The translations under genes were made by a program, and so were the position numbers. A model generated the notes under the pieces. The model searched no databases and was not told the origin of the DNA. It worked only from the letters and a program-made list of their open reading frames with translations. From positions 1-64,000 of IMG/VR virus record IMGVR_UViG_3300010885_044017: 64,000 bases of DNA. One strand, 5' to 3'. This document shows positions 3-24,137 of this stretch, piece after piece. Numbering within the stretch: the first letter of the stretch is position 1; each line of letters starts with the position of its first letter. Source of the stretch: a virus.

Positions 3-3000
3 CGAGTATCATATAATTACTTTGACAAACTAGCCCAGCAACAAGGCTATAAGGATGTATTTGATGCATACGCTGAGTTTGAAGAACTACCTACAACAGG
101 TCCTACTATGAGCAAAGGTGTGGAGGAAAGCGGGCGTCATGATGCGAGAAGTCCAGAAGAAAAAGCAGAACGTAAAGCATATATCAAAGCCCATGGACAT
201 CCTCCACCATTGACCCCAGCCAGTGTGCTATTCAATTATACCCCTGAGGTTGGTAAACGAGCTAGAGACTTTTATCTCAGAAAAAAAGGAATTCCACAAC
301 ACGAGCTGGATAAAATGAAAGAAGATGGTGTGGCGGAAGCAATTGAAACCATTCAAGGTAGAGAGTACCCAGTTGACCCCGGATTATATTATGTATGGGC
401 CTGGGACGGTGCAGCAGTGATATACGGTGAATACAACACCCCCGAACAGGCTGAAATGCATCTACCCCATATAGAACAAAAAGCCATCAAGCGAGTGGGA
501 CCTTATGTAAAAGGTGCATTTAGAGTGAGTGATGGCAGGAACCTGTTGCGTCGCTACGGTGTTGCTGTGCGAGATGTAACGGAAACCTCAATAGAAAAAG
601 CCGAGCAATATCTATTGGATGTGACCAAAAAACAAGCCGAAAAGCTGGGTGGCGTACAACGCGACATGTATGGCAAGATAGAGAAAACCTTTGGACCAAA
701 AGGTCCGCAACGCAAAAAAGGTGTTGATCGTGCATTGAATCGTGTACATGGCAAAGATAATTTAGGTGAAGTCACTGGTGATTTGAAATTTGACACCATG
801 TTGAGTAAACTGGTATCCAGTGGAAAATTTCAAACCATAGCCAAACAGTGGGCTGACATAATTCGTCAATTCCCCCAATATCAAGAAAAAAGCCAATCAG
901 CTGACAAGATTGTTGGCATGTTTCCCGACATGTTCCCCAATGGATATCCCGGTGGACATTTCTATGGCAGTGATGGAGGTGCATACCAGGAGATGATGCA
1001 ACTGTGGAAACGCATAGGACCTAGAGCCTTTGCCGGTAATGACGAAGATGAGGATGGAAATCCAGCAGACGGAGAAGACAGTTGGCATTCGGTGTTGGAC
1101 TACAGCGAAAACTATACCGATTATTGGAATAGGTTGGCACCCATATACCAAATATTAAACACTGTGCCCGGCTCTAGAGCCTATGCACCAGTGCTTACAA
1201 TGGTTTGGCATGAACTGTTTGGCGGCGGCGTTGAACACGGCACTGATGACATCAACAAGAAGGATGTGGCCGAAGGGGATCTAATGCGATCTGCTTGGGA
1301 GAAAAATCACAAAGCTTCAACAAGTCAACCAACCGGGCACAAGCCAGGATGGGCATTAGATCCACAGACTAAATTAAAATTAAAACAACGACAGCAGGTT
1401 AAACAACGGTCGGGTGTGGAGGAAACTGCTCCGTTGTCTAGAGATGCACGTAGAGAATTAGTTGCTCCAACCGATCGTGACACGATTAGACGTGAACTTT
1501 GGAAATACGTTCGCTCTCTAGATCAAGAAGGCAGTAGTAATCGTGCTCATGCAATGGCGTATAGTTGCCCAACTTGGGGTCAGTTATACCGTCAGTTCCA
1601 TAACGATATATCACAATTACTCAGCCGGGCACCAACCGAACTGTTGGCTCAAGCATTACAAGAGATACAAAGTAAATTCCAAGTTGTGGCGGAAGGCTAT
1701 GTTGATCGTAATGGCCCAATAGAAAATACTCCGCAAGTGGTTTGGTGGAGGAAAACTCAAGGTGGCGATAACATCTACTGGAAAGTATTTCCCTCTCTGT
1801 CAACAGCCAGTCGAGCCAGAGAAAATCTTGCAAATAGTCTTTATAAGAAATACGGCAAGAATTTTACAATTGGAAATGCAAAGTTTGATCCTTTAGATCC
1901 AGCACAGTGCAGAGCCGCAGATGCTGACCGGTACATGACTAAAAAGCCGGGTGTGACAGAAGGCTCCACACACAGCACCACCAATGAAAGCTCTTGGAGC
2001 ACCAATCCTTTGAATCCCATGAGTCCCTTTAGTCCCATGAATCCCTATAGTCCTTTGAAACCCGAAAATCTCAATCACCTCTCCGGCATTGGCGTTGTGA
2101 TTGGATCCGGACTAGCAGTCTATGGCGTCGCATTGGCACAGGCGTTCAAGGATCTGTTTCAACATCCAGAAACAGCCACCATGGGTGAAATCAAAAAAGT
2201 GCAGTCGCAAATCCGTGAATTATACAAAAAAACAAAAATACTGAAAACCGATCAGGGTCGTGCCAAAGCACAACAGGATCTAACAGCCGCCTATGAAGTG
2301 CTGGAACAACTGAAGACCCGTGTACACAGTGGCCTGGCCGAAGCCGCTGGAAAACCATTGAGTGTAGAACAGTTGGCCACCATCAGTGATGAGGCCCTAG
2401 ACGCGGCTTATCATTATGGTCGTAGCACACCAGGTAACACATTTGGATGGCAGGCCAACTTGAAATCAGCTGCTTATGCTAAAAAGATGATTGACTCGGG
2501 TGAGACTGACATTGAAAAGATCAGTGATGCCATCCATAGAGGGTGGAATGTCACTGCACAGGCATTTATACAAAATCCAATGATATTTGATGATAGCAAA
2601 ACAATGGCTCCGGAAAAATTACAAGCCAAATTGGCACAGCGTCAACGACTGGTAACACAGAACTATGCTCAATTGCCAGAAGATGAAAAAGAAAAAGATC
2701 GTGTGGTTGCCCGTGCCATGTTACAGGCCATCACAGGCGAGCCGGGTGTGGCGGAAGGCAGAGGAACTTTATCTCCAGAAGTTCAAACAAAAGTAGAACA
2801 GATGGCCCAGCGTTTTGCTACCTTACTGCGTAACAATATTCTTCGCACTCGAAAAGAAAATGTTTCTCAATTGGGATATTCAAAAGAACAAGCCGATCAA
2901 GAAGCCAAGGAAGCAGTTCAACAAATTCGTTTTGTTGCTAAAAACTTATCAAAGAATTGGCAAGCATCGGACTGGATCATTGATGTGGCGGATACTGGTG

Positions 3001-3911
3001 CTAAAGGTATCTATAATATTCTTATGAATCAAAAAAGTTTGGACGAGTTTAACTGGGAATCAAAATATCCAGGAATTACTCAAGCACTGAATCAAGCATT
3101 TGCTCATGCGTGGCAAAGCGTAGATGGTCTGGACCAACAAGGTGTGGCGGAATCAGCAGTTCCAAGCTGGTTAGCCAAGGGCAAACAGGTACGGCACGAG
3201 GGTATTTCAAATCGACCCTGCACAGTGCAGGGCATTGAGGGCGGAAAGGTTGTCATCCGAGATTGGACCGGCAAACTTTTCAAAGTGTTGGCTGCTACAT
3301 TGAAGCCAGTGACTGGAGTTGCATCTGAGGATAGCAACATGCCAGTGGCAGTGGACAGCATCAGCCCCATACACGGTGTAACGGAATACAACGGCAATGT
3401 CAATGATACACAATTAAAAAATGTTGATGCTGACAATCATAGTCAAGGCGAGGGCGATTTTGTTAAAAATCAATTACACACCATGAAAAGAGTAATAACC
3501 CATTTAGACAATGCCATTGGTAGCAATGAAGATTTGCCAGACTGGGTTCAAAGCGAAATTGCTAAGGCAGTAGATAAGATTGTCGGTGTTATGGATTATT
3601 CTATCAGCAGCAAAGAACAAGATATCGAAAAGCATCATGGTGGTAGTGCTTTAATGAAGGAAGGCTCGCAATCATTCCGCAACGGCATGCAGGTCAAACT
3701 CACACCAGAGTACGCAGATCGCCCAGATGAGATATTCACAGTGAGTCACTGTGACCAAGAACGTGGTCGTTGCTGGATCGGTGACAAACAAGGTCGCGGA
3801 TGGTCAGCCACATTTGATCAGCTGATACCGGTAGAAGATGACGATGACGAACTTGACATCATGGAAAATTACCTACAACAACTTAAACGAGCAGGATACG
3901 AGATACTATGA
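3..3911 (+). CDS. Giant multi-segment virion-associated protein, 5' end outside window
   Basis: The frame is open to the first base of the window, so the gene starts upstream; the first in-window ATG is at 108. At least 1,300 residues are seen. No single catalytic family is recognisable. The striking feature is a short motif, G-V-x-E followed by G, S, A, T or Y, encoded at 117, 327, 1413, 1950, 2745, 3141 and 3375, with related D/V-V-A-E-G at 1263 and 1683. The motifs separate segments of about 50-310 residues that look unrelated: a Pro/Ser/Asn/Met-rich linker with repeated P-x-S-P (about 1995-2060) followed by a Gly-rich hydrophobic stretch, helical charged segments, and two small beta modules near the C-terminus (about 3160-3320 and 3665-3835). 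The stop overlaps the next ATG (ATGA). I infer an internal or ejected virion polyprotein; this is not proven. Confidence 0.8.
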   Translation, partial: RVSYNYFDKLAQQQGYKDVFDAYAEFEELPTTGPTMSKGVEESGRHDARSPEEKAERKAYIKAHGHPPPLTPASVLFNYTPEVGKRARDFYLRKKGIPQHELDKMKEDGVAEAIETIQGREYPVDPGLYYVWAWDGAAVIYGEYNTPEQAEMHLPHIEQKAIKRVGPYVKGAFRVSDGRNLLRRYGVAVRDVTETSIEKAEQYLLDVTKKQAEKLGGVQRDMYGKIEKTFGPKGPQRKKGVDRALNRVHGKDNLGEVTGDLKFDTMLSKLVSSGKFQTIAKQWADIIRQFPQYQEKSQSADKIVGMFPDMFPNGYPGGHFYGSDGGAYQEMMQLWKRIGPRAFAGNDEDEDGNPADGEDSWHSVLDYSENYTDYWNRLAPIYQILNTVPGSRAYAPVLTMVWHELFGGGVEHGTDDINKKDVAEGDLMRSAWEKNHKASTSQPTGHKPGWALDPQTKLKLKQRQQVKQRSGVEETAPLSRDARRELVAPTDRDTIRRELWKYVRSLDQEGSSNRAHAMAYSCPTWGQLYRQFHNDISQLLSRAPTELLAQALQEIQSKFQVVAEGYVDRNGPIENTPQVVWWRKTQGGDNIYWKVFPSLSTASRARENLANSLYKKYGKNFTIGNAKFDPLDPAQCRAADADRYMTKKPGVTEGSTHSTTNESSWSTNPLNPMSPFSPMNPYSPLKPENLNHLSGIGVVIGSGLAVYGVALAQAFKDLFQHPETATMGEIKKVQSQIRELYKKTKILKTDQGRAKAQQDLTAAYEVLEQLKTRVHSGLAEAAGKPLSVEQLATISDEALDAAYHYGRSTPGNTFGWQANLKSAAYAKKMIDSGETDIEKISDAIHRGWNVTAQAFIQNPMIFDDSKTMAPEKLQAKLAQRQRLVTQNYAQLPEDEKEKDRVVARAMLQAITGEPGVAEGRGTLSPEVQTKVEQMAQRFATLLRNNILRTRKENVSQLGYSKEQADQEAKEAVQQIRFVAKNLSKNWQASDWIIDVADTGAKGIYNILMNQKSLDEFNWESKYPGITQALNQAFAHAWQSVDGLDQQGVAESAVPSWLAKGKQVRHEGISNRPCTVQGIEGGKVVIRDWTGKLFKVLAATLKPVTGVASEDSNMPVAVDSISPIHGVTEYNGNVNDTQLKNVDADNHSQGEGDFVKNQLHTMKRVITHLDNAIGSNEDLPDWVQSEIAKAVDKIVGVMDYSISSKEQDIEKHHGGSALMKEGSQSFRNGMQVKLTPEYADRPDEIFTVSHCDQERGRCWIGDKQGRGWSATFDQLIPVEDDDDELDIMENYLQQLKRAGYEIL

Positions 3912-4345
3912 ACGATGAACTAACACAAGCAGCAAAGATAGCCTTTGCCAGTCACTATACTTTTTATTTGAAAAGTCACTACTTCCACTGGAACGTGGAA
4001 GGTATACACTTTCAAGAACTACATAGTTTATTTGAAACCATCTACACCGAAGTGTATGGTGCTGTGGATGAATTCGCTGAGAAAATACGAAGTTTGGGTG
4101 CTTATGCTCCGGGGTCAAACAGTAGATTCGCCATGCTGACCCGCATTGAAGATGAAAGTGCAGTGTGGGTGGCAGAGAAGATGGTGGCGGAACTATTGAA
4201 CGATGCAGATAAAATGTTTAAAATATTAAAGATTGTTTACGACCAAGCTGAAGCCGCAGGTGAACACGGCTTCAGCAATTTTCTTGCTGAAAGAATGGAT
4301 GCCTTTAGAAAACACGCATGGATGTTAAGGAGTACATTAAAATGA
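3908..4345 (+). CDS. dps: Dps/ferritin-like protein
   Basis: This 145-residue protein belongs to the Dps family of iron-oxidising, DNA-protecting mini-ferritins. The ferroxidase pattern is intact: His27 in HWNVEG, His39, Glu43, Asp54 and Glu58 have the same spacing (12, 4, 11, 4) as E. coli Dps His51, His63, Asp67, Asp78 and Glu82. The length is near the family norm of 150-170, with a short N-terminal tail. Start and stop overlap both neighbours by ATGA. Its place among proteins with capsid-targeting-like leaders suggests it may be packaged or protect DNA in the virion or early infection, but this protein itself has no obvious leader. Confidence 0.88.
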   Translation: MNDELTQAAKIAFASHYTFYLKSHYFHWNVEGIHFQELHSLFETIYTEVYGAVDEFAEKIRSLGAYAPGSNSRFAMLTRIEDESAVWVAEKMVAELLNDADKMFKILKIVYDQAEAAGEHGFSNFLAERMDAFRKHAWMLRSTLK

Positions 4346-5721
4346 GAATCAATGAAATACTAACAGAAAAGTGGAGTCAAAAATACAAAAACAGTATTAA
4401 TTGCAGTCATCCCAAAGGTTTTAGTCAACGGGCTCACTGTGCTGGTAAACGCAAGCATAATGAAAGTCATGAAGTGATGGAAATGACTTGCCCGGACTGC
4501 GGTCGGTGTGAAACACACGGCAACATCAATGAAATTGCCAAAGGTCAAAAAGACGCCAACGGTTTTACCCGTTGCTGGCCAAATCATCATGCCGAAGGAA
4601 CCAAGCGGGGCAAGAACGGTGGACAAGTTCGTAAATGTGTGCCCAATGAAAGTGTCACTGAAGAAGACCGACTCAACGAATTTTCTCCTAACAGAGACTC
4701 TGGCGAGGACTATATGCCACAATTGGTTCTTGTTTCGGCTGGGATACAAGCTGAGAACCATGGCAAACGCAGTTATAACTACCATTTTGATGTGATCGAT
4801 GAGGATGGCGAGCAAATGGGTGACTGCATGGTCAATTCAGCTCGAGGCATACTCGAAGGTGATATTTTTCTCAATGGAAAAGTGAAATACTTTGCTTACA
4901 AGATGACAGATAGATATCGGCCTTTTGTTCAACAGGCACATGATTTGATCAACGATCACGAAAATCAAGGGGTATCGGAAGACAACTTAAAGGAATTTGC
5001 ACCTCCCGAAGATCACAACTGGGACGACGGCGAGCTGGATGATGATCCAGTGGGTCGTGCAGCCTATCGTGCGGCCATGACCATCAAGGCTTGGCAAATG
5101 GATAGAGCTACTGCCATCAAGACCCTGGCTAGTTATCCGCAACTGATAGCTCAGCTGAAAACCTTGGAACCGGCCATCCTGACCGACAAAACAGAATTCC
5201 AAGAGCTGTTGGATTGGGCTGTGACCCAGTCCAGGATGTCGGATGCAAGCATGATGGATATTTCCAATGACATACGGAATACCGAAGGTCCTGAAGATGA
5301 TGATGAATTGGACGAAGAGTTTGATTTAGTTGAAAGCATCATTGAAGGATTGGCTGATCACAACAGTGTAGATGCCGAAGTGATATGGGAAGACCTAGAA
5401 TCATTAACAGATGACGAACTGTATGTGTTTGCAGTTACACAGCAAACCATCACAGAAGATTGGCAAAAGGTCAATAAACGGGATCACACTTCAGGTATGA
5501 GTCAAAAAGCTGTCAATGCCTATCGTAGAGAACATCCAGGTTCAAAATTAAAAACTGCTGTAACCACCAAGCCGTCAAAGCTAAAGCGTGGTAGTAAAGC
5601 GTCAAAGCGTAGAAAAAGCTACTGTTCAAGAAGCCGAGGACAAATGAAGATGCATAATATTTCGTGTGCCAAGACTCCGGACAAGGCCATTTGTAAAGCA
5701 CGTCGACGTTGGAACTGCTGA
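4342..5721 (+). CDS. Cys-rich modular protein with capsid-targeting-like leader
   Basis: I chose the ATG at 4342 because it has an AAGGAG box at 4327-4332 and overlaps the previous stop by ATGA. The 459-residue product starts MRINEILTE, which matches the hydrophobic-x-Glu leader of T4 internal proteins. Next come a Cys/His-rich part (N-S-I-N-C-S-H-P-K-G-F..., then C-P-D-C-G-R-C), a section rich in N-G-F-T-R-C-W-P, and two V-x-E sites (4651-4665 and 4969-4983). The C-terminus is strongly basic and Cys-containing (about 5500-5718) and resembles, from memory, small Cys/basic modules in marine T4-like phage proteins of unknown function. No enzyme motif is seen. Packaged virion protein is the inference. 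Confidence 0.8.
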   Translation: MRINEILTEKWSQKYKNSINCSHPKGFSQRAHCAGKRKHNESHEVMEMTCPDCGRCETHGNINEIAKGQKDANGFTRCWPNHHAEGTKRGKNGGQVRKCVPNESVTEEDRLNEFSPNRDSGEDYMPQLVLVSAGIQAENHGKRSYNYHFDVIDEDGEQMGDCMVNSARGILEGDIFLNGKVKYFAYKMTDRYRPFVQQAHDLINDHENQGVSEDNLKEFAPPEDHNWDDGELDDDPVGRAAYRAAMTIKAWQMDRATAIKTLASYPQLIAQLKTLEPAILTDKTEFQELLDWAVTQSRMSDASMMDISNDIRNTEGPEDDDELDEEFDLVESIIEGLADHNSVDAEVIWEDLESLTDDELYVFAVTQQTITEDWQKVNKRDHTSGMSQKAVNAYRREHPGSKLKTAVTTKPSKLKRGSKASKRRKSYCSRSRGQMKMHNISCAKTPDKAICKARRRWNC

Positions 5722-5801
5722 TGAACTATCCTTATCCTGTGTATCCTGAAAAGGAAAACCCCAACGATGATAGACCAACGAATCCCTACGCACCTGTATG
5801 A
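5721..5801 (+). CDS. 26-residue proline-rich mini-protein
   Basis: A 26-codon frame fits exactly between two genes: its ATG overlaps the upstream TGA (5719-5721) and its TGA overlaps the downstream ATG at 5798. The product is Pro, Tyr and Asn rich (M-N-Y-P-Y-P-V-Y-P-E...). Translational coupling on both sides, as for all genes around it, is the only support. It could alternatively be a spacer that keeps ribosomes moving into the next gene. Confidence 0.45.
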   Translation: MNYPYPVYPEKENPNDDRPTNPYAPV

Positions 5802-6601
5802 AAATCTTAGAAATCGTTGATCTAATAGAAGGCAAATACTCCGGACCCATGGAGCCTTTATCCGCCAAGGGCACAGCCAAGGATGGAGCAGTAGCAGCAT
5901 TAGAAACGGCCCTGATACGTGCCAAGAAAAACGGCACCGAGATGAACTATGAAAACATAGATGCCATGATGCAACGAATCTGCCGGAGTCACAACATAAC
6001 AGGTCAAAAACTACATGATGATTTTGTCAAAGCACACAATCTCATTCCGGACAATTGGATTAAGAAACAAAAGTTAAAAGAAAACACTGGATTAAACTAC
6101 AACGGTCAAAGTTACATGGACACGCCACGTATTCAAAGTTTGATACAGCAGGCACAGGAGATTGAAAGTCAACTGGCTCCTGTTGAGTCTGGCCACACAC
6201 GCTTGTGGCGCGGCAATAGGCCCGGCGAAGTGGGACAAAATCCAACTTTTACCAACAGTTTAGTGGGCATAGCATTACCGTTTTTACAACAGTACGGTGG
6301 ATCATTGACCTATATAGATGTGCCCACTCAAGATTTAGCACAGTACACCGATAGTGTGGCCTCGGCACCCAACAGTGAATTCACAGTGACTCCAGAATTG
6401 GCACAACAAGCACAAGTAGTAAAAGAAAACTTTGCCGATGGCAAGGTCCGAGGCAAGAGTCGTCCCGGACGTGTAAAACGTGCAGGTGCCAGTTGTAAGG
6501 GATCGGTGACCAGTCTAAAACAAAAAGCCAAAGCAGCATCGGGAGAACGTAAACGAATGTATCAATGGTGTGCCAACATGAAGTCAGGCCATAAAAAATG
6601 A
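5798..6601 (+). CDS. ADP-ribosyltransferase-like protein with leader and basic C-terminus
   Basis: This 267-residue protein starts MKILEIVDLIE-G, a leader ending in L-I-E like the T4 capsid-targeting sequence cut by gp21. Residues about 130-200 read like a mono-ADP-ribosyltransferase core of the R-S-E type: L-W-R-G-N (Arg), T-F-T-N-S-L-V-G-I-A (S-T-S-like strand and helix), and N-S-E-F-T-V-T-P-E-L-A near residue 190 (possible catalytic Glu). The last 55 residues are basic with W-C-A-N-M-K-S-G, a tail I recall from other phage virion proteins. T4 Alt, also packaged, is the obvious analogy. The ART assignment is inference from motif order, not alignment. Confidence 0.7.
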   Translation: MKILEIVDLIEGKYSGPMEPLSAKGTAKDGAVAALETALIRAKKNGTEMNYENIDAMMQRICRSHNITGQKLHDDFVKAHNLIPDNWIKKQKLKENTGLNYNGQSYMDTPRIQSLIQQAQEIESQLAPVESGHTRLWRGNRPGEVGQNPTFTNSLVGIALPFLQQYGGSLTYIDVPTQDLAQYTDSVASAPNSEFTVTPELAQQAQVVKENFADGKVRGKSRPGRVKRAGASCKGSVTSLKQKAKAASGERKRMYQWCANMKSGHKK

Positions 6602-6972
6602 AAATTGTTGAGATACTGGTTGAAGGTCAGGACACTGTGTCAGTGGTTCGGCAGTACTTGCCTTGGTTTGTTGATCAAGTAAAATTAAAATCTGTTCCCA
6701 AAATTCGATTGCTTCGTGAACCCACTGGCACTGCCTTTGGTGGATTTGACCTAGACACAGAACAAATAAACCTAGTTGTGGGCGATAGACACCCCGTTGA
6801 TGTGTTACGTACCCTGGCACATGAGCTGGTGCATGCACGTCAAAGAGAACAGGACGAACTAGATCCAGGTGATGGAGCCACAGGCAGTGCGGCCGAAAAT
6901 CAAGCCAATGCTGAAGCCGGTGTACTCATGCGTGACTTTGGCGAACAGCATCCGGAGTTTTTTGAATCGTGA
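6598..6972 (+). CDS. Putative zinc metallopeptidase (HExxH)
   Basis: This 124-residue protein starts MKIVEILVE-G, again a leader with a hydrophobic-x-Glu end. The rest is a small zincin: the helix T-L-A-H-E-L-V-H-A at residues about 72-80 carries the HExxH zinc and catalytic site, and E-N-Q-A-N-A-E-A about 20 residues later could give the third ligand. The ATG overlaps the previous stop. Neighbours suggest it is co-packaged or made with the other leader-bearing proteins. Its substrate is unknown. It is not the prohead protease, because gp21-type proteases are serine enzymes without HExxH. Confidence 0.75.
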   Translation: MKIVEILVEGQDTVSVVRQYLPWFVDQVKLKSVPKIRLLREPTGTAFGGFDLDTEQINLVVGDRHPVDVLRTLAHELVHARQREQDELDPGDGATGSAAENQANAEAGVLMRDFGEQHPEFFES

Positions 6973-8489
6973 GAGCTGATGAAATACAACCAAGTAAATT
7001 AGTTGTCTTTGACATAGACGACACCTTGGTGCACACGCAAACTCAAGTGCATGTGATTCGCAATGGTGCTGTAGTTAAAAGTTTAAACAGTCATGACTTT
7101 ACACTGTACCGACTCCAGCCTGGCGAGGAATTTGACTTTGCGGACTTTAGAAACGCACAAGAATTCTTTGAAAAATCGCGTCCAATTATTCCCATGATGA
7201 ATCAACTCAAGCACGATATTGCCACAGGCAACCGAGTTGTGATGGTGACGGCCAGAGCTGACTTTGATGATAAAGAATTATTTTTAGACACGTTCCGCAA
7301 GTACGGTGTTGACATGAGTCGTGTGCATGTGTACCGTGCCGGCAACATGCAGGGTGCTACCACAGAAGAAAAGAAAAAGAAGATCATACGTGATTTATTA
7401 GATCAAGGTAGTTACACCAAGGCCATCATGTATGATGATGCTGTGCCCAACTTGAACAGTTTTATGGAATTGAAGCAGGAATATCCCGACACAAGATTCT
7501 ATGCTTGGCATGTGGATCCAGAAGGCAGAGCCAGAGAATTTGCGAGAGAATCTGTTGCAGAGGCCAAAACTGTACACTACAACGGCATAGATATTTCAAT
7601 TGAAACACAAGATGATATTGAAGGTTATATAGCTGACCCGGATGATGAACCACTCATATATGTTATTGCTAGAAGCGACGGTCAAGAACTGGGACATGTG
7701 CTGTTTTCATTTGATGGCGAATATCTTACACCAGAAGATTTAGAAGTTGATGATCGCTGTCGTGGTCAAGGCATTGCTGCCACCATGTATGACTATATGA
7801 AAAATCAAGGATATAAAATACGCCGTAATCCTTCACAAACTGCGGCTGGTGCTGGGTTTTGGAACAAACATAAACCAAGTAAAAATATCTGGGAACAACA
7901 GAAAAAAGAATTAGTAAAAGAAGTCAACGATGCAGATGAACTTGAAGTGAGCGAAAGAATACAGGATTATTTCTTTTCAAAAGGCTACAAGTACGTGGGT
8001 GAAGGGCGGGATCAAATAGTTTTCAAAAGTCCAAGAAACACCATAGTCAAGGTGCTGGGTGTGGGTGATGGTGATAGAGAACAAGCTGTGCGTGACTATG
8101 TGGAGTTTTTTCAACGCAATCAACGCAACCCACATTATCCACGAATATACAATTCAGGAGATTTTCAGCTGGGCGAAGAAACTTATTTTGTGTACGAAAC
8201 AGAGTATTTGGAGTATGTGGCCAGTGAAGAAGCTACTCTAGAGTACATTGAGGATTTAATGACAGCCATGGCACGCGGTCAGCTGGGGGTAAATGCGTTC
8301 ATGATGAATAAACCAAGACCCTCCGGCATCAGCGAACAAGAATTGGATGGCCTAATATATGCCACCGAAGCGATCATTGAGGGTCTAGTTGGACCCAAAG
8401 GTTATAATTTGGATTTGGGTCAGATTGAAAATATTAGAAGACGTGCCAACGGACAGTTGGTCATAGTGGATCCCATCAGTATCTACTAG
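6969..8489 (+). CDS. Three-domain HAD phosphatase, GNAT acetyltransferase and kinase-like fusion
   Basis: A GTG start at 6969 overlaps the previous TGA; the product has 506 residues and starts MRADEI. Residues 10-190 are a HAD-superfamily phosphatase (D-I-D-D-T at 15-19, V-T-A-R motif II, D-D-A-V-P motif IV), similar to phage polynucleotide-kinase phosphatase halves. A V-A-E-A site (7551-7565) ends it. Residues about 200-315 are a GNAT acyltransferase (C-R-G-Q-G-I-A-A-T). After an E-V-S-E site comes a protein-kinase-like fold: G-E-G-R-D-Q-I-V-F-K with a following V-K, and near the end N-L-D-L-G-Q-I-E-N and V-I-V-D-P in place of the catalytic and metal loops. The fusion and linker sites fit cleavage into separate enzymes. 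Activities are unproven. Confidence 0.78.
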   Translation: MRADEIQPSKLVVFDIDDTLVHTQTQVHVIRNGAVVKSLNSHDFTLYRLQPGEEFDFADFRNAQEFFEKSRPIIPMMNQLKHDIATGNRVVMVTARADFDDKELFLDTFRKYGVDMSRVHVYRAGNMQGATTEEKKKKIIRDLLDQGSYTKAIMYDDAVPNLNSFMELKQEYPDTRFYAWHVDPEGRAREFARESVAEAKTVHYNGIDISIETQDDIEGYIADPDDEPLIYVIARSDGQELGHVLFSFDGEYLTPEDLEVDDRCRGQGIAATMYDYMKNQGYKIRRNPSQTAAGAGFWNKHKPSKNIWEQQKKELVKEVNDADELEVSERIQDYFFSKGYKYVGEGRDQIVFKSPRNTIVKVLGVGDGDREQAVRDYVEFFQRNQRNPHYPRIYNSGDFQLGEETYFVYETEYLEYVASEEATLEYIEDLMTAMARGQLGVNAFMMNKPRPSGISEQELDGLIYATEAIIEGLVGPKGYNLDLGQIENIRRRANGQLVIVDPISIY

Positions 8490-12941: not shown

Positions 12942-13673
12942 ATGCAAGATTTTTTAAAAGATATCGTATCGCACACACACGGACTGGGCATTATTGACCT
13001 AGTTAAAATTACCGGCACTGAAGACGACACAGTGATCAATGCAGTGGCCGAAGATAGATCAGTCATCGTAGAAGCACGATTCAAATCAGCACATCCAGAT
13101 TTCATTGGTGTGTTTGGTATGCCTAACTTGGGCAAACTCAATACTATTTTGGGTATTCCAGAATACAGAGAAAATGCACAACTCAGTATCAATCGTCAAG
13201 ACCGTAACGGTGAATCTATTCCCGCAGGAGTACATTTTCAAAATGCCGCCGGCGACTTTAAAAACGACTATCGTTTTATGGCTGCAGAAATCATCAATGA
13301 CAAACTCAAAGCAGTGAAATTCAAAGGTGTCAAATGGGGTGTGGACTTTGTTCCCACCAATGCAAATATTCAACGTTTGAAATTTCAAGCCAGTGCCAAC
13401 AGTGAAGAAACCACATTCATTGCCAAAACCGAAAACGGTGACTTGAAATTCTTCTTTGGTGATGCCAGCAGTCATGCAGGTAACTTTGTGTTTCAAGCAG
13501 GAGTTTCGGGTACTATCTCTAAAGCATGGAATTGGCCAGTTGCGGCTGTTATCAGTATTTTAAATCTAAGTGGAGACAAAACATTTAAAATCTCCGATGA
13601 AGGTGCTGCTATGATCACCGTAGACTCTGGACTTGCAGAATACTCTTACATTATCCCAGCACAGACCAAATGA
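12942..13673 (+). CDS. 45: Sliding clamp (T4 gp45-like)
   Basis: The 243-residue product matches the gp45 clamp in length (T4: 228) and order: an N-terminal helix with a long beta-rich body, a central L-S-I-N-R-Q-D-R-N-G loop, and the C-terminal strand pair F-K-I-S-D-E-G-A-A-M-I-T-V-D-S-G-L with Y-S-Y-I-I-P-A. Clamps tether the polymerase and, in T4-like phages, activate late transcription. A strong ribosome site (AGGAGA, 5-bp spacing) and its own consensus promoter fit high expression. The stop overlaps the following ATG. Confidence 0.82.
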   Translation: MQDFLKDIVSHTHGLGIIDLVKITGTEDDTVINAVAEDRSVIVEARFKSAHPDFIGVFGMPNLGKLNTILGIPEYRENAQLSINRQDRNGESIPAGVHFQNAAGDFKNDYRFMAAEIINDKLKAVKFKGVKWGVDFVPTNANIQRLKFQASANSEETTFIAKTENGDLKFFFGDASSHAGNFVFQAGVSGTISKAWNWPVAAVISILNLSGDKTFKISDEGAAMITVDSGLAEYSYIIPAQTK

Positions 13674-14302
13674 AGATTGATGCAGGATTTTTAACTCAGT
13701 GGAGTTCAAAAGGCCATGTGTATGGTCAATGCATGTCCAGCAACAACACGGATCTCATGTATGTCAACATTCCTAAAAATGCCAGCTCGTGGACCAAACC
13801 CAACTTGAAAGATTTTGGTTGGGAGTTCTACAACTATCACACAGATAGAATTCTTCAGATCAAAACAGCCATGGTGGTACTGCGTGATCCTGTTGAGCGT
13901 TGGATTTCGGGCATTGCCGAATACCTTGCACTGTATCATCCAGATTTTATCATGCATGATCTAGAAGCCATGGATTTAATTTTTGATAGAATTGCATTTG
14001 ACGACCACACCGAGCGTCAAGTAAACTTTGTACATGGACTTGACAGTGAACAATGTGTGTTTTTTCTATGTGACGAATACTATAGACAAGACTTCAGTGT
14101 GTTCTTGGATGAACAGGGTATGCCTAATAGGTATCATAGGTATGAACCACAACATGTCAGTGAAGCAGATCCCATACGTAAAAAGTTTAAAAATATATTT
14201 GAGAGAGAAATACAAAATCCTCGATATCTCAAAGCAGTCAAAGATTACTTTGCCGCAGACTACGAATTAATTAACTCAGTAAAGTTCTATGGAACAAGAT
14301 AA
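13670..14302 (+). CDS. Sulfotransferase-like protein
   Basis: The 210-residue product has the two PAPS-binding signatures of the Sulfotransfer_2-like families: Y-V-N-I-P-K-N-A-S-S-W near residue 31 (5'-phosphosulfate loop) and V-V-L-R-D-P-V-E-R-W-I-S-G near residue 70 (3'-phosphate loop). It would transfer sulfate to a hydroxyl or amine, probably of a glycan. The APS-kinase-like gene at 53805-54596 in the same genome could help supply PAPS. It overlaps the clamp gene by ATGA and the next gene by 14 bp. Confidence 0.78.
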   Translation: MKIDAGFLTQWSSKGHVYGQCMSSNNTDLMYVNIPKNASSWTKPNLKDFGWEFYNYHTDRILQIKTAMVVLRDPVERWISGIAEYLALYHPDFIMHDLEAMDLIFDRIAFDDHTERQVNFVHGLDSEQCVFFLCDEYYRQDFSVFLDEQGMPNRYHRYEPQHVSEADPIRKKFKNIFEREIQNPRYLKAVKDYFAADYELINSVKFYGTR

Positions 14303-15884
14303 CTTAACAGCAAAACAAAAAGATTATGCAGTATTTCTTCCAGCCATCTCGGGGTTTTATGCCACATTCATAGGCAAACAACGTGATACCTCAGCAACAC
14401 CTTATGTAGATCCTGCACGTTTTCCACAGGGCCTGACAGATATGGAACAGATGAACTGGCTTGATGCACAGAAAGCCCTGTTCCCTTATCGATGGAGTCT
14501 TTACTCGGGTGGTCATGCCAATCTTGATCTTAACAAGCAGGACTGGAGTGAGGACATGGTTCGTAATAGAGATCCCAACACCGTGATGCTGGGCGATTCA
14601 GGTGGTTTCCAAATTGCCAAAGGCCTATGGGAAGGTGACTGGCGGGCTAACAGTGGATGCCCCCGGGCTCAAGCTCGGCGTGAAGCTGTGCTTAAATGGC
14701 TGGATGGCATTGCCGATTATGGCATGACCTTGGATATTCCAACTTGGGTGATACACGATAAGAAAGCCAGTCTGGCATGTGGTATCAGCACTCTACAAGA
14801 AGCTGTGGATGCCACTAGATTCAACAATGACTTTTACATGAAGCATCGTCGAGGCATCAACAACGGTGGTATGCGAGTGTTGAACGTGTTGCAAGGTGCC
14901 AATCACGATGATGCTGAACAATGGTATCAAACAATGAAAGATTATTGCGATCCTGTCAAGTATCCCGACACACATTTTAATGGCTGGAGTATGGGTGGTC
15001 AGAACATGTGTGATGTAGAACTAGTATTAAAAAGACTTGTTGCATTACGATATGATAATTTGCTACAACCAGGCGTACATGATTGGATGCACTTCTTGGG
15101 CACTAGCAAATTAGAGTGGGCAGTGCTACTTACAGTTATACAACGTGCGGTGAGAAAACACATCAATCCTGCTTTTACCATTAGTTTTGATTGTGCCAGT
15201 CCTTTCTTGGCCACTGCCAACGGACAGGTGTACTTTGAAAACGTATTCCCACAGGACGGTAAATGGAGTTATAGAATGGCTCCTGTGTTGGATGATAAAA
15301 AATATGCCCAAGACACTCGTAAATGGAGTACAGGAGTATTGGCTGACTTGCCTGTCAAAGATCCTGGCACAGCAATTAAAAATTGGGATGAAAGCCCCAT
15401 CAGCAACATGCTGAAAATGAAAGATATTTGTGTGTATGCACCTGGTGATCTTAATAAGAATGGCAAAGAGCCAGCACGAACTAGTTGGGACAGCTTCAGT
15501 TATATGTTGCTGATGGGTCACAATGTTTGGATGCATTTGACAGCAGTGCAAGAAGCCAATAGACGATTCGATAGTGGTGAACATCCGGCAATGATGCAGT
15601 ACAGCGGAACCAAAGGACGCACCGGAGACCATGCCTACTTTGAAGACATTGTGGAAAGCATATTTGTTGCTCCAACGCAAGCAGACAGTTTAGAAATTAT
15701 TAAAAAATACAGCAAGTATTGGACCGACATCATCGGAACCAGAGGATTCAAAGGCGATAAAGTTGTAAATGCATACACCATGGCCGGTAAACTGGTGGAC
15801 ATCGAAGGCAATTTGGCTCGCGATAAACCTGTTAAAACTGAACAACCACGGCCCTTACTCAACCCAGACCTATTTGGAGAATAA
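14289..15884 (+). CDS. dpdA: DpdA-type DNA guanine transglycosylase
   Basis: This 531-residue protein is related to tRNA-guanine transglycosylases: M-L-G-D-S-G-G-F-Q near residue 100 (TGT D-S-G-G-F-Q) and I-S-F-D-C-A-S-P-F near residue 300 aligned with the nucleophile loop F-D-C-V-x-P-T-R. The C-x-C-x2-C zinc site of tRNA enzymes is not visible and the family is longer than bacterial TGT, both as in DpdA, which swaps guanine in DNA for a 7-deazaguanine. With folE, queD and queE at 25-30 kb this implies modified phage DNA that resists host restriction. Confidence 0.82.
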   Translation: MEQDNLTAKQKDYAVFLPAISGFYATFIGKQRDTSATPYVDPARFPQGLTDMEQMNWLDAQKALFPYRWSLYSGGHANLDLNKQDWSEDMVRNRDPNTVMLGDSGGFQIAKGLWEGDWRANSGCPRAQARREAVLKWLDGIADYGMTLDIPTWVIHDKKASLACGISTLQEAVDATRFNNDFYMKHRRGINNGGMRVLNVLQGANHDDAEQWYQTMKDYCDPVKYPDTHFNGWSMGGQNMCDVELVLKRLVALRYDNLLQPGVHDWMHFLGTSKLEWAVLLTVIQRAVRKHINPAFTISFDCASPFLATANGQVYFENVFPQDGKWSYRMAPVLDDKKYAQDTRKWSTGVLADLPVKDPGTAIKNWDESPISNMLKMKDICVYAPGDLNKNGKEPARTSWDSFSYMLLMGHNVWMHLTAVQEANRRFDSGEHPAMMQYSGTKGRTGDHAYFEDIVESIFVAPTQADSLEIIKKYSKYWTDIIGTRGFKGDKVVNAYTMAGKLVDIEGNLARDKPVKTEQPRPLLNPDLFGE

Positions 15885-15885
15885 C

Positions 15886-16407
15886 ATGGATAGACCTGGA
15901 CATGAAGATGTGAACTTTTTCGTTGGAACTGAAGTAGAACACACACCAGCATACAATAAAAAAACTTTATTTGTCATTGGTGTACACAGCGAATCGGCCA
16001 TCATCACTGCCGCTGATGCACAACCATACCCAATTGATCATATTTATTTTGGTGCCAATCACAGTTTCCCACTGTTGGCAGTGAATGATGCCGAGGCCTG
16101 GCAAGCATGGGAACTTATGATTACTCCATTTTTACGCCGTGGTATGTTGTGCACCTTGGATATAGATGTTGCCTGTGCCGAAGGGTTATTGGAAAGTGGA
16201 TTGACAGAGTTTCACAACTTTGTTCCCATGCTTTCGGTTAAATTGCCCTATATACAACAGCTGGGATATAATGCTACAATTAAACTAGACGATAGAGACT
16301 TTGCGGCCTCCAATCCTGGAGTCTGGTGTCATAGTTTACATGCGTTACAGGACCGTAAGTGTTTTACGGACTGGAGTCAATATACCAAAGATGAGGTAAT
16401 AAAATGA
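15886..16407 (+). CDS. Unknown protein linked to dpdA
   Basis: I start at ATG 15886, right after the dpdA stop, with GGAGA as ribosome site; the upstream extension of the frame lies inside dpdA. The 173-residue product is soluble, with V-G-T-E-V-E-H near residue 13, F-V-I-G-V-H-S and T-L-D-I-D-V-A-C, and no metal or nucleotide motif I can name. Close spacing on both sides (2 bp, then ATGA) suggests a partner in base modification, possibly DNA recognition or regulation; that is inference. Confidence 0.68.
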   Translation: MDRPGHEDVNFFVGTEVEHTPAYNKKTLFVIGVHSESAIITAADAQPYPIDHIYFGANHSFPLLAVNDAEAWQAWELMITPFLRRGMLCTLDIDVACAEGLLESGLTEFHNFVPMLSVKLPYIQQLGYNATIKLDDRDFAASNPGVWCHSLHALQDRKCFTDWSQYTKDEVIK

Positions 16408-16847
16408 ATCAAGAATTGAGAGAAACAGTGGATAGAATCATGACACAGGCCCAAAGACAGATTTGGGTCACGTTCCAACGTGAAGGCATACATCGCTATC
16501 CAGCTGCAGCTACAGATCCCAACTTGTGTACTCCCGGTGAGTATGATGTGAGTTTCCTAGCCAATAGTCACAGACACATATTCCATTTTCAAGTCTGGAT
16601 TGGTGTAGAGCATAATGATAGAGACATTGAATTTATACAATTCAAACGTTGGCTGGAAAGTCTTTACAGCAAGGATGTGTTACAGTTGGACTTTAAAAGT
16701 GTGGAAATGCTCGCCGACGATCTCTATCTTCAAGTAGCAGAACGATATCCTGGTCGTTATGTATCAATTGAGGTATCCGAGGACGGTGAAAACGGATGCC
16801 ATATCAATTACAACGTAGTCCGTCCAAGTCTTTCAATCGTAATTTAA
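16404..16847 (+). CDS. Tunnelling-fold (QueD/QueF superfamily)-like protein
   Basis: The order of motifs in this 147-residue protein follows the T-fold of QueD: S-F-L-A-N-S-H-R-H-I-F-H-F-Q-V (cf. the His-rich zinc strand), D-R-D-I-E-F-I-Q-F-K-R-W-L (cf. V-D-F-x-x-L-K), K-S-V-E-M-L-A-D-D-L (cf. P-T-A-E-N-L-A), and Y-V-S-I-E-V-S-E-D-G-E-N-G (cf. the C-terminal E strand). The second zinc His is not clearly conserved. Next to dpdA it may act on the deazaguanine precursor or the inserted base. I cannot confirm the fold without structure prediction. Confidence 0.6.
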   Translation: MNQELRETVDRIMTQAQRQIWVTFQREGIHRYPAAATDPNLCTPGEYDVSFLANSHRHIFHFQVWIGVEHNDRDIEFIQFKRWLESLYSKDVLQLDFKSVEMLADDLYLQVAERYPGRYVSIEVSEDGENGCHINYNVVRPSLSIVI

Positions 16848-16858
16848 AGGAGTAGTAT

Positions 16859-17128
16859 ATGGGCCAGCCCACTTGGTTAAACAAATATCTTCGCTTAAGA
16901 CCCGAAGTCCGCGACCTGTTTGATGATCTTGAAGAGTATCTCACGTTCTGTAAAAAACAAGGTTATGTGTATGATGAAAATCATCTCTACAATGAAAAAA
17001 CTCCCTGGGGCGAAATGCAACGTGTGAAAGCCGGCAAACATCCTAAAGATAATTGGAGCCCGTATCCCAAAGAAAAACGTGATTTCAAACCACGTGATGC
17101 AAATTGGCGTCCAAGAACATGGCGCTAA
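16859..17128 (+). CDS. Small conserved-looking protein
   Basis: An 89-residue basic protein with a good ribosome site (AAAGGAG). The pattern R-P-E-V-R-D-L-F-D-D-L-E-E-Y-L-x-F-C recalls small proteins of T4-like marine phages, function unknown. The C-terminus is rich in Lys, Arg and Trp and might contact nucleic acid. Confidence 0.65.
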   Translation: MGQPTWLNKYLRLRPEVRDLFDDLEEYLTFCKKQGYVYDENHLYNEKTPWGEMQRVKAGKHPKDNWSPYPKEKRDFKPRDANWRPRTWR

Positions 17129-17457
17129 CACCCGAAACTCCTGCCACCGGAGTCTTGATCAAAAACACCTGGGGCGACGCCAAAATGTACAAGGTCATAT
17201 GTGAGTGTGGCCAAAGTGATCATGATCATGATGTTTGGGTCGAATCCGATGAAACAGGTGTCACTGTTACTACCTATACCACAGGTAAAACCAACTGGTG
17301 GAGTAGAACTCGATGGTATCACATCTGGACACTGCTGACTCGAGGTTACATCCGATACGAATCTAGTCTCATAATGAATAGACAACAGGCTGTCAACTAT
17401 GCTACAATACTACAACAAGCAGTGAAAGATGTTGAAGAATTTAGGAAAGCACGATGA
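17119..17457 (+). CDS. Unknown small protein
   Basis: The start ATG 17119 lies inside the end of the previous gene; the longer TTG-started frame is less likely. The 112-residue product has a beta-rich centre with C-E-C-G-Q-S-D-H-D-H-D-V-W, a possible metal-binding cluster, then a Trp-rich part and a C-terminal helix. Stop and next start overlap (ATGA). No family is recognised. Confidence 0.66.
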   Translation: MALTPETPATGVLIKNTWGDAKMYKVICECGQSDHDHDVWVESDETGVTVTTYTTGKTNWWSRTRWYHIWTLLTRGYIRYESSLIMNRQQAVNYATILQQAVKDVEEFRKAR

Positions 17458-18632
17458 GAAAACTTTGGTACATGGGCCTAGAGCCCTATAAAGCAAGATA
17501 CACACTACAGTTACAAGACTGGAACGAACGTGTATTTCGGCGTCGTGGTATTGATTATGAAATTGTCGCTGGTGAAACATTAAGCAATGATCAAGCCATT
17601 GTAACCGGACAGGTGTTGGATGCACACGGACGTACTTACTTTGGTATGAGTCAATTAATGATGCTTGTGGCAAAAATGAAAGCAGGAGAAATCACAAATG
17701 AAGATGTTATATACTTTGAAGACATGTTTCAACCAGGCATCGAGAGCCTACCTTACATTATTAATCAAGTTGAGCCTAACATGCGTCCTAGGATCGCTGT
17801 TCGTTGTCTTGCACAAAGCATTGACCCGGACGATTTCGTTCATGTCTGGGGTATGTCAAAGTGGATGGCACTTTATGAGAAAATGGTGGATAGTTTTGCG
17901 GATATTGTATTAGCTTCAAACGAAGAAATGGCAATGCACATGAAAATAGCTGGCTGGGAAGCCCCGATCTACAACATCTCCGGCTTGGCGTTTGGTCGAG
18001 ATGAAGTCCGTGCAAGAGTGCCTGGAGAATTAACACCGTTTGATCAAAGAGCCATGCGAGTGGCTTTTGCGGCCAGAACAGATCAAGAAAAACAGCCGCA
18101 CTTTTATTTAGATTTAATTCAAGCATGGCACGATAACTTTCATTTGCCTCGAGTAGAGTTTGCTATCTTCAGTGGCTCTCAACTGCGTGGCAATGATCAA
18201 GGTGCCATTGATCGTATCCGTGCGTTTGAAGCAAAGGGCATGATCAAAGTGTACGATAACCTTGAGAAGAATGAATACTATGCGTTATTAAACGACACTA
18301 GGGTATTGTTTAACTGTGCTTTACAAGATTGGGTGTCTAACACTGTGAGTGAAGCAGATACCTTGGGTGCCAATGTGTTATATCCAGCATATAGAAGTTT
18401 CCCTGAGACTTTTGCCAACGACGCAAGCCGCTTGTATGTTCCTTGGAGTTTGGAAGATGCTATGAGCAAGTTACAATCTTTGTTGAACAAACCAAGCCAA
18501 CACATGGGCCGTATCAGTGCCTGGACCGATGGTACTGTTGATCGTATTGTTGATATATTACAAGGATCTGGAGAACAGTGGCTACGCATGAGTACAGATT
18601 ACAGAAAACACACACATGAGTCTAAATACTAA
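17454..18632 (+). CDS. GT-B fold glycosyltransferase-like protein
   Basis: The 392-residue length and layout fit a GT-B (GT4-like) glycosyltransferase: an N-terminal domain with V-I-Y-F-E-D-M-F-Q-P-G, then M-R-V-A-F-A-A-R-T-D-Q-E-K-Q near residue 205, the usual start of the donor domain with its basic loop, and L-L-N-D-T-R-V-L-F-N-C...S-E-A-D-T-L-G-A near residue 290, the donor-binding acidic motif. Target may be the modified DNA base, a virion protein or a glycan. It sits between dpdA and galE. Confidence 0.72.
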   Translation: MRKLWYMGLEPYKARYTLQLQDWNERVFRRRGIDYEIVAGETLSNDQAIVTGQVLDAHGRTYFGMSQLMMLVAKMKAGEITNEDVIYFEDMFQPGIESLPYIINQVEPNMRPRIAVRCLAQSIDPDDFVHVWGMSKWMALYEKMVDSFADIVLASNEEMAMHMKIAGWEAPIYNISGLAFGRDEVRARVPGELTPFDQRAMRVAFAARTDQEKQPHFYLDLIQAWHDNFHLPRVEFAIFSGSQLRGNDQGAIDRIRAFEAKGMIKVYDNLEKNEYYALLNDTRVLFNCALQDWVSNTVSEADTLGANVLYPAYRSFPETFANDASRLYVPWSLEDAMSKLQSLLNKPSQHMGRISAWTDGTVDRIVDILQGSGEQWLRMSTDYRKHTHESKY

Positions 18633-18819
18633 ACGAGAAATTTGGATAACTTTGGCTCGAGAGCAGTACCCCATGTTGACCGAAACTGAACTTGATGCCT
18701 TGAGTATGCGAGCTGCCAGTCAATGGTTCCTGGGTGAGGAAAATGAATTAACTAAATTATTTGATCAATATGTAATGTTAAAAACTATTGTATTCCCGAC
18801 CCCATTGACCCAAACATAA
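18616..18819 (+). CDS. Small unknown helical protein
   Basis: A 67-residue product whose ATG overlaps the end of the glycosyltransferase gene. It is mostly helical (T-L-A-R-E-Q-Y-P-M-L-T-E-T-E-L-D-A-L) with no known motif. Overlap and good coding pattern support it. Confidence 0.55.
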   Translation: MSLNTKREIWITLAREQYPMLTETELDALSMRAASQWFLGEENELTKLFDQYVMLKTIVFPTPLTQT

Positions 18820-18832
18820 AAGGATTTTATAT

Positions 18833-19063
18833 ATGACCATTGACTTATTAACTGGTGTAGTTGGGATGGTAGGCTTTTTAGCCGGCTATGCCTATTGTGC
18901 CAGCCAACAAAAACCTCCCATCACTGATGAAAAGCTACAACGGGATTTAGCGTACCATCGTAATTTGACAGACAGTTTAATACAGGATGTCATTGACCTA
19001 CGCAAAAAAAACAATATCTTGCTAGAAAAAAATTGGCAACTAACACAAACAAAACCCAAATGA
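18833..19063 (+). CDS. Small membrane-anchored coiled-coil protein
   Basis: A 76-residue protein with an AAAAGGA ribosome site. Residues 4-22 form one hydrophobic segment (L-L-T-G-V-V-G-M-V-G-F-L-A-G-Y-A), followed by a charged heptad-like helix to the end. This layout resembles phage spanin or lysis-accessory proteins, but the lysis gene is far away (35.6 kb), so the role is open. Confidence 0.6.
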   Translation: MTIDLLTGVVGMVGFLAGYAYCASQQKPPITDEKLQRDLAYHRNLTDSLIQDVIDLRKKNNILLEKNWQLTQTKPK

Positions 19064-20034
19064 GAAAAATCATAGTAACTGGAGGCTGTGGTTACATTGG
19101 TAGCCACGTGGCACGAGCATTCAAACAGAATGGTGATCATGTGGTTATCATTGATCGAGAGCAAAGAGATCATACCTTACAAGGTATAGATGGCTATTTG
19201 ATTGCAGATTTCGCCAGTGATAGCAGTCTAGCCACCATGCACAGCCTGGCACCAGATGTTGTTGTACACTGTGCCGGAACCAGCTTGGTTGGGCCCAGCA
19301 TGGACAATCCTGGTGAATACTACGACAACAACATTGCCAAGACCATACGCATGCTGAATGCGGTGAAAGACTTTGATACTAAACCTGTAGTAATGTTCAG
19401 TAGCAGTGCCAGTGTGTACGGAGAACCCGATAGATTGCCTTGCAGAGAATACGACACTATCCAACCCATCAGTCCCTACGGTGCCACCAAGGCCATGACT
19501 GAACGCATGTTGGCCGACTACTGGGGCGCCTATGCTGTACCCAGTGTGTGCTTTAGGTACTTTAATGCTGCTGGTGCAGAACCTTTCAGTGCAGATCTAG
19601 GTCAAGAACCTGGTGCCACACACTTGATAGCTCGTGCTTTAGAAGCCAGCATAGCTCAACAACCTGTTACTATCAACGGTGGTGATTACCCCACAGAGGA
19701 CGGTACCTGTGTAAGAGACTACATACATGTATGGGATATAGCCAGAGCACATGTCATGGCCGCTGATTATAAACTCAATGACTATCCACAACCTGGTGCT
19801 GAAGTGTTTAACCTAGGCACCAACACAGGCACCAGCAATCAAGCCATTGTGGATTATGTATTAGAAAAATACGGGATAACTTCGGTTAATTATGGTCCAG
19901 CTAGATTTGGAGATCCTGCGGAACTTGTGGCCGATGCTGGTTTAATAAAAGAAAAGATGGCGTGGGTGCCTGAACACAGTGACATTGCCACCATCATTGA
20001 TAGTGCCCATCGGTGGTACACCAGGAATGTTTAA
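19060..20034 (+). CDS. galE: UDP-glucose 4-epimerase-like protein
   Basis: Start at ATG 19060 (ATGA overlap). The 324-residue product is an extended SDR: G-G-C-G-Y-I-G-S-H NAD loop at the N-terminus, S-S-S-A-S-V-Y-G, the Y-G-A-T-K catalytic pair near residue 145, and R-Y-F-N-A-A-G-A-E-P typical of GalE. It interconverts UDP-glucose and UDP-galactose or their N-acetyl forms. Position between glycosyltransferase genes suggests it supplies the donor sugar. Confidence 0.88.
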   Translation: MRKIIVTGGCGYIGSHVARAFKQNGDHVVIIDREQRDHTLQGIDGYLIADFASDSSLATMHSLAPDVVVHCAGTSLVGPSMDNPGEYYDNNIAKTIRMLNAVKDFDTKPVVMFSSSASVYGEPDRLPCREYDTIQPISPYGATKAMTERMLADYWGAYAVPSVCFRYFNAAGAEPFSADLGQEPGATHLIARALEASIAQQPVTINGGDYPTEDGTCVRDYIHVWDIARAHVMAADYKLNDYPQPGAEVFNLGTNTGTSNQAIVDYVLEKYGITSVNYGPARFGDPAELVADAGLIKEKMAWVPEHSDIATIIDSAHRWYTRNV

Positions 20035-24107: not shown

Positions 24108-24137
24108 CCAAAACACCAGTTTATAACTTAAAATACT

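Follow-up and report, generated by a model that had tools for sequence, protein, structure and literature searches.

Modular polyproteins of a metagenomic T4-like phage as candidate capsid cargo processed by a gp21-type head protease

Why do neighbouring genes of a phage repeat one short peptide motif between unrelated protein domains? The question is raised by the beginning of a 64,000-nucleotide stretch of viral DNA (the window, i.e. bases 1-64,000 of the 151,913-base virus record IMGVR_UViG_3300010885_044017, here G000), where a cluster of plus-strand genes (3-8489) encodes one long and several shorter proteins with V-x-E sites. An earlier note on this DNA had proposed that these proteins are packaged into the capsid and cut into separate effectors, which are delivered with the DNA. 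In phage T4 gp21 removes a short propeptide from the N-terminus of the internal proteins (IPs) and of Alt by cutting after L/I-x-E, and in IPIII residues 4 and 7 are responsible for targeting and residues 8 and 10 govern processing (PMC9026906). Based on the findings described below, the cluster is likely to encode gp21-processed, capsid-packaged modular polyproteins, i.e. a variant of the T4 internal proteins.

The first gene (3-3911) codes for the C-terminal 1,302 residues of a modular polyprotein, the first 97 residues of which lie upstream of the window. The intact protein is found at L007:2650-6849, on a contig that overlaps the window start and extends further upstream; it comprises 1,399 residues and starts with MNIYDLF..PTVSE/ (N-terminus MNIYDLFDSNKKPSKPTVSE; here and below a slash marks a predicted cut). 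Hence, the long multi-site protein of the earlier note stands, but its figure of 1,267 residues reflects truncation. All nine sites listed there are in frame, namely GVEE/SGR (117-128), GVAE/AIE (327-338), DVAE/GDL (1263-1274), GVEE/TAP (1413-1424), VVAE/GYV (1683-1694), GVTE/GST (1950-1961), GVAE/GRG (2745-2756), GVAE/SAV (3141-3152), and GVTE/YNG (3375-3386). The relative of this protein in L008, a record of 154,554 bases from a different phage, has 932 residues and contains re-ordered modules with junctions at [GV]xE. Homology between the two starts or stops at the sites: it begins at the site at 327 and has breakpoints at those at 1413, 1683, 1950, 2745, and 3375, with junction pairs such as GSGVEE/GSGGP versus GSGVEE/AIETI, GVEE/TAP versus DVEE/TAP, VVAE/G versus GVAE/G, and GVTE/YNG versus GVAE/GQQ. 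In agreement with the earlier note, in which the sites split the long protein, homology breakpoints place them at true module boundaries. The 1,302-residue protein had no match in Pfam and no significant one among the PHROGs, so that no recognised catalytic domains were found fused in it, and tblastn found no relative among named phages; related polyproteins do have GNAT or NTase-like matches. Upstream of the 1,399-residue gene, L007 encodes a 230-residue protein and a 652-residue open frame, in which [GSV]VxE occurs another six times.

The motif is strongly concentrated in these proteins. When the cluster genes of the window are combined with the upstream genes from L007 (3,947 residues) and compared to the 45,153 residues encoded elsewhere in the record, GVxE occurs 14 versus 5 times, i.e. 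at a 32-fold higher density (p 4e-12), and enrichment is 9-fold for [GSDV]VxE (p 6e-13) and 2.9-fold for VxE (p 2e-7), with no significant enrichment in the cluster for the control patterns V.D, V.Q, and E.V. Relative to per-protein shuffles, an excess of [GSDV]VxE is clear in the 1,399- and 652-residue proteins (p 0.0005) and weaker in the product of the 4318 gene (p 0.009).

A scan that presupposes no motif leads to the same pattern. Local alignments were compared among 1,886 proteins, and each of the 400 aXb patterns was counted where these alignments end; VxE ranked first (376 observed versus 129 expected, 2.9-fold, z 21.7), followed by MxE at rank 2, IxE at rank 3, and LxE at rank 6, with V.D, V.Q, and V.K being flat. 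The V-x-E motif of the earlier note is therefore the most enriched form, but the real motif is aliphatic-x-E, as position P3 is broadly aliphatic (V/I/L/M). Consequently, six further sites have to be added: DVTE/TSI (573-584; DVEE/TAP at the same place in L008), GLAE/AAG (2331-2342; ALAE/STG in L008), TITE (5446), KLKE (6071), VVKE (6416), and LVKE (7911). After in-silico cutting of 114 proteins, members of the most frequent module family were found to have nine different neighbours on their left side. The constraint on the junction is best seen at the DUF6321 module, which starts with DWQK: in 43 distinct upstream contexts P3 is V in 18, L in 12, I in 10, F in 2, and T in 1, P1 is E, P2 is free, and the codons vary widely. 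As residues are constrained while codons are free, this resembles the fingerprint of protease subsites rather than a DNA element.

Nevertheless, part of the junctions also shares a DNA spelling. The word GGTGTGGCGGAA (up to 2 mismatches) is present 12 times in the window versus 3.9 expected, ten of these copies being within the long gene, and the codon bias at the sites is strong (GGT for 19/20 Gly; GCG for 12/16 Ala versus 8% of Ala genome-wide), which implies that the copies are not independent in origin. Moreover, exact copies of the 15-base word GGTGTGGCGGAAGGC are present in at least 120 viral contig stretches (L173-L251), and modules are shuffled at the word. The V-x-E junctions might thus be mere scars of DNA recombination, with the intact protein serving virion or cell as a "polyvalent" multidomain protein. 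Yet translation of the word gives GVAE in 281 of its 293 occurrences, other junctions vary their codons freely while keeping the aliphatic P3 and the Glu at P1, and the same site terminates leaders that resemble T4 capsid-targeting sequences, making this explanation unlikely. For the same reasons, i.e. the nearly constant GVAE reading and the retention of residues with different codons at other junctions, a pure DNA repeat or the border of a mobile element was rejected as origin of the word, and a chance origin of the motif was rejected by the density, breakpoint, and DNA-word counts. Some contigs carry two or three copies of GGTGTGGCGGAAGGC, frequently at distances of 150 to about 1,500 bases.

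The shorter genes of the cluster connect the junction motif with capsid targeting. The 4318 gene (4318-5721, true start probably 4342) codes for a modular protein of 467 residues that begins with the capsid-targeting-like leader MRINEILTE/KWSQKY (4342-4368), and the leaders MKILEIVDLIE/GKYSG (5798-5830) and MKIVEILVE/GQD (6598-6624) are located, as previously described, at the start of the next two genes. Two more leaders are encoded towards the opposite end of the record, MRITEITTE (149320) and MKINEILLE (open frame at 149802). Typically, the leaders have 9-20 residues and follow the pattern M-[KR]-x-x-E-[FIL]-[VIL]-x-E/. The T4 record contains MKTYQEFIAE (IPII, IPIII), MELITELFDE (Alt), and MAKINELLRE (gp24), and, as in the T4 propeptides, MRINEILTE/, MKILEIVDLIE/, MKIVEILVE/, and MKINEILLE/ are short and end in (L/I)-x-E. 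The form M[KR]xxE[FILV][VILFM]xE was counted in 171 distinct N-termini, as compared to 4-10 when the Glu at position 9 is replaced by any one of eight other residues.

Leaders and internal junctions are interchangeable in front of the same module. The KWSQKYK..INCSHPKGF module of the 4342 product occurs elsewhere behind other leaders and behind an internal GVAE/. In the window the GKYSG module stands behind a leader, and in L015 (INE/) and L016 (NLDE/) it is internal. The NFADGK module stands behind VVKE/ in the 5798 product and behind leaders such as MRANEFIIE/ elsewhere, DWQK is found behind the leader MRASEFVTE/ and the internal sequences TITE/, GVAE/, and PVME/, and a DWNK variant follows the leader MKIAELIAE/. 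In 3,707 alignments of post-leader with deep internal module starts, [VIL]xE was aligned in 1,050, [VIL]xD in 125, [VIL]xK in 66, and [VIL]xQ in 41, these counts being descriptive as many of the pairs are related to each other. Such comparisons support the equivalence of the predicted leader cut site and the internal junction site.

The gp21-like protease invoked in the earlier note was found in the full record. A Peptidase_S77 gene is located at G000:121851-122495 (PF03420 match 121908-122360, E 1.9e-29), flanked by portal genes on one side and by genes for a gp22-like scaffold and a gp23-like capsid protein on the other. The protease can be aligned with T4 gp21 in its HP and GVSSRG regions, and LME/T is found in the capsid protein near the position of FLTE/A in T4; the nearest named relatives of the capsid protein are those of Vibrio phage 2.275.O, Sinorhizobium phage Phosso, and the PA5oct group. 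The portal gene consists of two overlapping open frames (G000:118742-119653 and 119578-120465), perhaps due to a frameshift in the assembled record.

Evidence from virions comes from cyanophage relatives. ORF137 (108049-109521) of Synechococcus phage S-CREM2 (OR473000) ends with a DUF6321 module, and mass spectrometry of purified virions identified it by four unique peptides, the virion proteome also including a kinase, a cytidylyltransferase, a SAM hydrolase, ORF13, and ORF136; the authors caution that co-purification is possible (PMC10665884). In our analysis these five proteins carry IPIII-like leaders, namely VKRFDAFLTE/ (kinase), MKNFSSFLTE/ (cytidylyltransferase), MKDFDSFLEE/ (SAM hydrolase), MKDLHSFLTE/ (ORF13), and MQTFSMFFSE/ (ORF136). 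Leaders were found in 5/28 virion non-structural ORFs and 3/124 undetected ORFs (p 0.006), a value that is exploratory since a stricter first pattern matched nothing and [FILV][VILFM]xE at residues 9-11 was chosen afterwards. Similarly, the NMNAT of S-SCSM1 (MK867354), annotated as virion protein, has the leader MKSFLQFLKE/ and the kinase of S-CRM01 (HQ615693) has MISFDQFLSE/. T4 IPIII-like leaders of 10 residues, e.g. MKSFSQFLTE, are seen on enzymes of S-CREM2, S-CRM01, S-SCSM1, and P-SSM2 (AY939844), several of these enzymes having been reported in virions, and the Cas9-like protein of S-CREM2 contains LRFASFMAE within its first 25 residues.

We propose that the leader serves as capsid-targeting sequence that would bring the protein into the prohead core, where the gp21-type S77 protease of the phage would cut after aliphatic-x-E, remove the leader and split the long proteins at every module junction. 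One open reading frame (ORF) would then give rise to several small proteins in the capsid, among them basic modules that resemble DNA-binding proteins, a zincin, perhaps an ART, and numerous uncharacterised ones, and the released proteins would enter the host along with the DNA. The module order is shuffled between phages at the junctions, aided by the short shared DNA word. The sequence data show the leaders, the protease, the identity of the junctions, and the shuffling, and published proteomics of relatives shows leader-bearing enzymes and one DUF6321 protein in virions. Packaging directed by the leader is highly probable, cleavage at the internal sites is predicted with good probability from sequence comparison, and a host-directed role of at least some modules is somewhat likely. 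The packaged and cut effectors proposed earlier are thus partly supported: T4-type leaders, a gp21-type protease, sites that lie at module boundaries and are equivalent to leader cut sites, and virion proteins of relatives argue for the proposal, whereas the internal cuts and an action in the host are what we infer.

Packaging and leader removal may also be real, in accordance with the first steps of this scheme, while the internal cuts only destroy the proteins in a scaffold-like manner, as for gp22 and gp67, so that no separate effectors reach the host. T4 gp22 and gp67 as well as the propeptides of SPN3US undergo cleavage at numerous positions and for the most part exit the head (PMC9026906, PMC10052503), and many of the modules here are small and uncharacterised; they look like small basic or uncharacterised domains, not like recognised effectors. 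On the other hand, the sites are located at module boundaries and, in two structure models, beside or in interdomain linkers instead of running through folded domains. Moreover, modules that form part of a polyprotein are also encoded by single genes with a leader of their own, and in relatives enzymes and a DUF6321 protein are still present in the mature virion. We thus attribute a small, though not negligible, chance to mere destruction and retain the release of separate proteins as the preferred explanation.

In the 4342 product SVTE/EDR (4651-4662) and GVSE/DNL (4969-4980) are present in frame, as had been noted, and TITE/DWQKVN (5446-5457), conforming to the DUF6321 junctions with V/L/I/F at P3 in 42/43 distinct contexts, precedes the basic, Cys-containing DUF6321 module (5458-5718), assigned by family match. 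The Dps/ferritin-like gene at 3908-4345 (PF00210, E 1.4e-20), between the long polyprotein gene and the 4318 gene, lies inside the cluster and has no leader.

The 5798 gene (5798-6601) codes for a leader-bearing protein of 267 residues with a helical module, an ART-like region (6083-6415), and a basic C-terminal module (6428-6598, ..MYQWCANMKSGHKK), as judged from sequence and model. Its candidate sites, KLKE/NTG (6071-6082) and VVKE/NFADGK (6416-6427), are situated in a low-confidence linker (residues 89-99) and at the end of another one (residues 184-209), respectively. The ART claim of the earlier note survives as a motif: the R-S-E-type residues RLWRG..TNS..NSEF suggest an ART, and the region is 60% identical to one within the L067 polyprotein, but neither Pfam nor a sequence search of the PDB gave a match, and the low pLDDT over the region makes the model too weak for a fold search. 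The basic NFADGK module is widespread in viral contigs; among 84,980 bacterial and archaeal genomes it had a single match, on contig L305 (CAJQJC010000070.1) of a Candidatus Pelagibacter metagenome-assembled genome, which is possibly a phage contig binned with its host, and thus its distribution is virus-like.

The 6598 gene (6598-6972) encodes a leader-bearing, zincin-like protein of 124 residues. Here, the HELVH motif agrees with the zincin named earlier, but family scores are only weak. Scans of viral contigs for the ART-like and zincin proteins gave one further locus each. In L067 a single frame of 1,087 residues combines NTP-transferase-like, zincin, kinase-like, and ART-like regions with aliphatic-x-E between them, i.e. 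zincin and ART-like regions that are separate leader genes in the window are fused there. Zincin-like HEXXH domains thus occur in the cluster, in L067, and in L016, and autoproteolysis by embedded zincins has been proposed for polyvalent proteins by Iyer et al. 2017 (PMC5512222). It is nevertheless highly improbable that such domains separate the modules in our case, as the zincin of the window is a separate gene, no HEXXH domain was recognised in the 1,399-residue protein, and the site is identical to the leader cut site and fits the specificity of S77 proteases, not that of a zincin.

The last gene (6969-8489) encodes a HAD-GNAT-kinase fusion of 506 residues. SVAE/AKT (7551-7562), in frame as listed before, lies in a low-confidence linker (residues 195-199) between HAD and GNAT, and LVKE/VND (7911-7922) in a linker (residues 283-322) ahead of the kinase. 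The best Foldseek matches of the C-terminus are APH(2'')-Ia and protein kinases (probability 1.00, E about 5e-5) with low TM-scores (0.2-0.4), and according to the model it is a protein-kinase/APH fold. Structure models of the 5798 and 6969 products are modest (mean pLDDT 62 and 72), the sites adjoining or falling in low-confidence linkers.

Several observations weigh against processed, packaged polyproteins. The N-terminus of the 6969 product, VRADEIQPSKLVVFDIDD, contains no aliphatic-x-E ahead of the HAD domain, so that this fusion lacks a cuttable leader, and the case for its packaging depends on the operon position and on the packaged kinases of other phages. When considered singly, the 5798, 6598, and 6969 proteins have VxE counts that do not exceed those of shuffled sequences, in contrast to the long proteins; therefore, the evidence there consists of junction homology, not of counts. 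The breakpoint enrichment is also seen in the "other" protein group, which holds members of single-site families and is no clean negative control. As GVAE copies share a DNA spelling, recombination may explain part of the repetition. In 46 related records PF03420 had 8 matches, exactly the eight records with a complete T4-type portal; S77 is thus confined to T4-portal records, and several large records have neither head gene, so that the co-occurrence is consistent with the proposed processing but not proven. Since these other large records have no T4 portal or capsid gene except truncated ones at record ends, a missing S77 gene says little. Finally, the virion proteomics stems from relatives, for which the text consulted reports no internal cut.

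The cluster shares features with several known systems. With T4 IPI-III and Alt (PMC9026906) it has in common the leader pattern ending with aliphatic-x-E/, a gp21-type protease, basic cargo, and possibly an ART (Alt in T4), but T4 cargoes lose terminal propeptides, whereas here many similar internal sites, in which V is preferred at P3, link unrelated modules. Polyvalent proteins, with which the proteins described here share a mosaic module order and several unrelated domains per polypeptide, are multi-domain proteins predicted to be packaged and injected, with a mosaic order of domains such as zincin, ART, NTase, and GNAT; Iyer et al. compared them to the polyproteins that RNA viruses make (PMC5512222). 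Their proposed processing relies on embedded metallopeptidases, in contrast to the capsid-protease motif that interchanges with capsid-targeting leaders in our proteins, and most of the modules differ. In giant phages the prohead proteases cleave after A/S-x-E (PMC5694885, PMC10052503, PMC9026906); in phiKZ and SPN3US (PMC5694885, PMC10052503) an S77-family protease likewise cuts after x-x-E and internal head proteins are ejected with the DNA, but P3 is A/S instead of V/I/L, and long propeptides rather than module linkers are removed. In phage P1 an N-terminal targeting sequence sends the large protein DarB to the capsid for delivery to the host; different from our case, the available part of that report describes no common leader consensus of the Dar proteins and no repeated junction motif (PMC9024508). 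The virion kinases, NMNAT, and SAM hydrolase of cyanophages have the IPIII-type leaders found in this analysis, but are mostly single-enzyme proteins, and the leader is not remarked on in the available part of PMC10665884.

In the open-access literature, to which the search was confined (subscription journals being outside its scope), we found no description of gp21-type cleavage at module junctions or of these leaders in metagenomic phages. We are inclined, with some reserve, to regard the cluster as an example of a widespread, previously undescribed polyprotein system of T4-like phages, in which the head-maturation protease would serve as polyprotein processor, leaders and linkers would be interchangeable cassettes, and GGTGTGGCGGAA would be a swap word similar to a cloning site, providing each phage with its own injected set. 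The core idea of the earlier note is well supported and applies more widely than was stated there. If true, the phage head protease would be a directly testable case of a polyprotein processor, and the rule of a leader plus aliphatic-x-E junctions would allow hundreds of phage proteins listed as "hypothetical" to be predicted as injected cargo, together with their mature ends. It would also explain the kinases, NMNAT, SAM hydrolase, and Cas9-like nuclease in cyanophage virions and would offer a natural modular system for loading phage heads with proteins.

Outside of the cluster, no terminal repeat joining both ends of the record was found. Judged by eye from the translations, a run of genes at 12942-25283 of the window resembles sugar or surface biosynthesis, with UDP-sugar epimerase-like, radical-SAM-like, hexapeptide acyltransferase-like, and glycosyltransferase-like members and a fragment of a DegT-like aminotransferase, and the minus strand at G000:82000-93438 contains one open frame of 3,812 residues.

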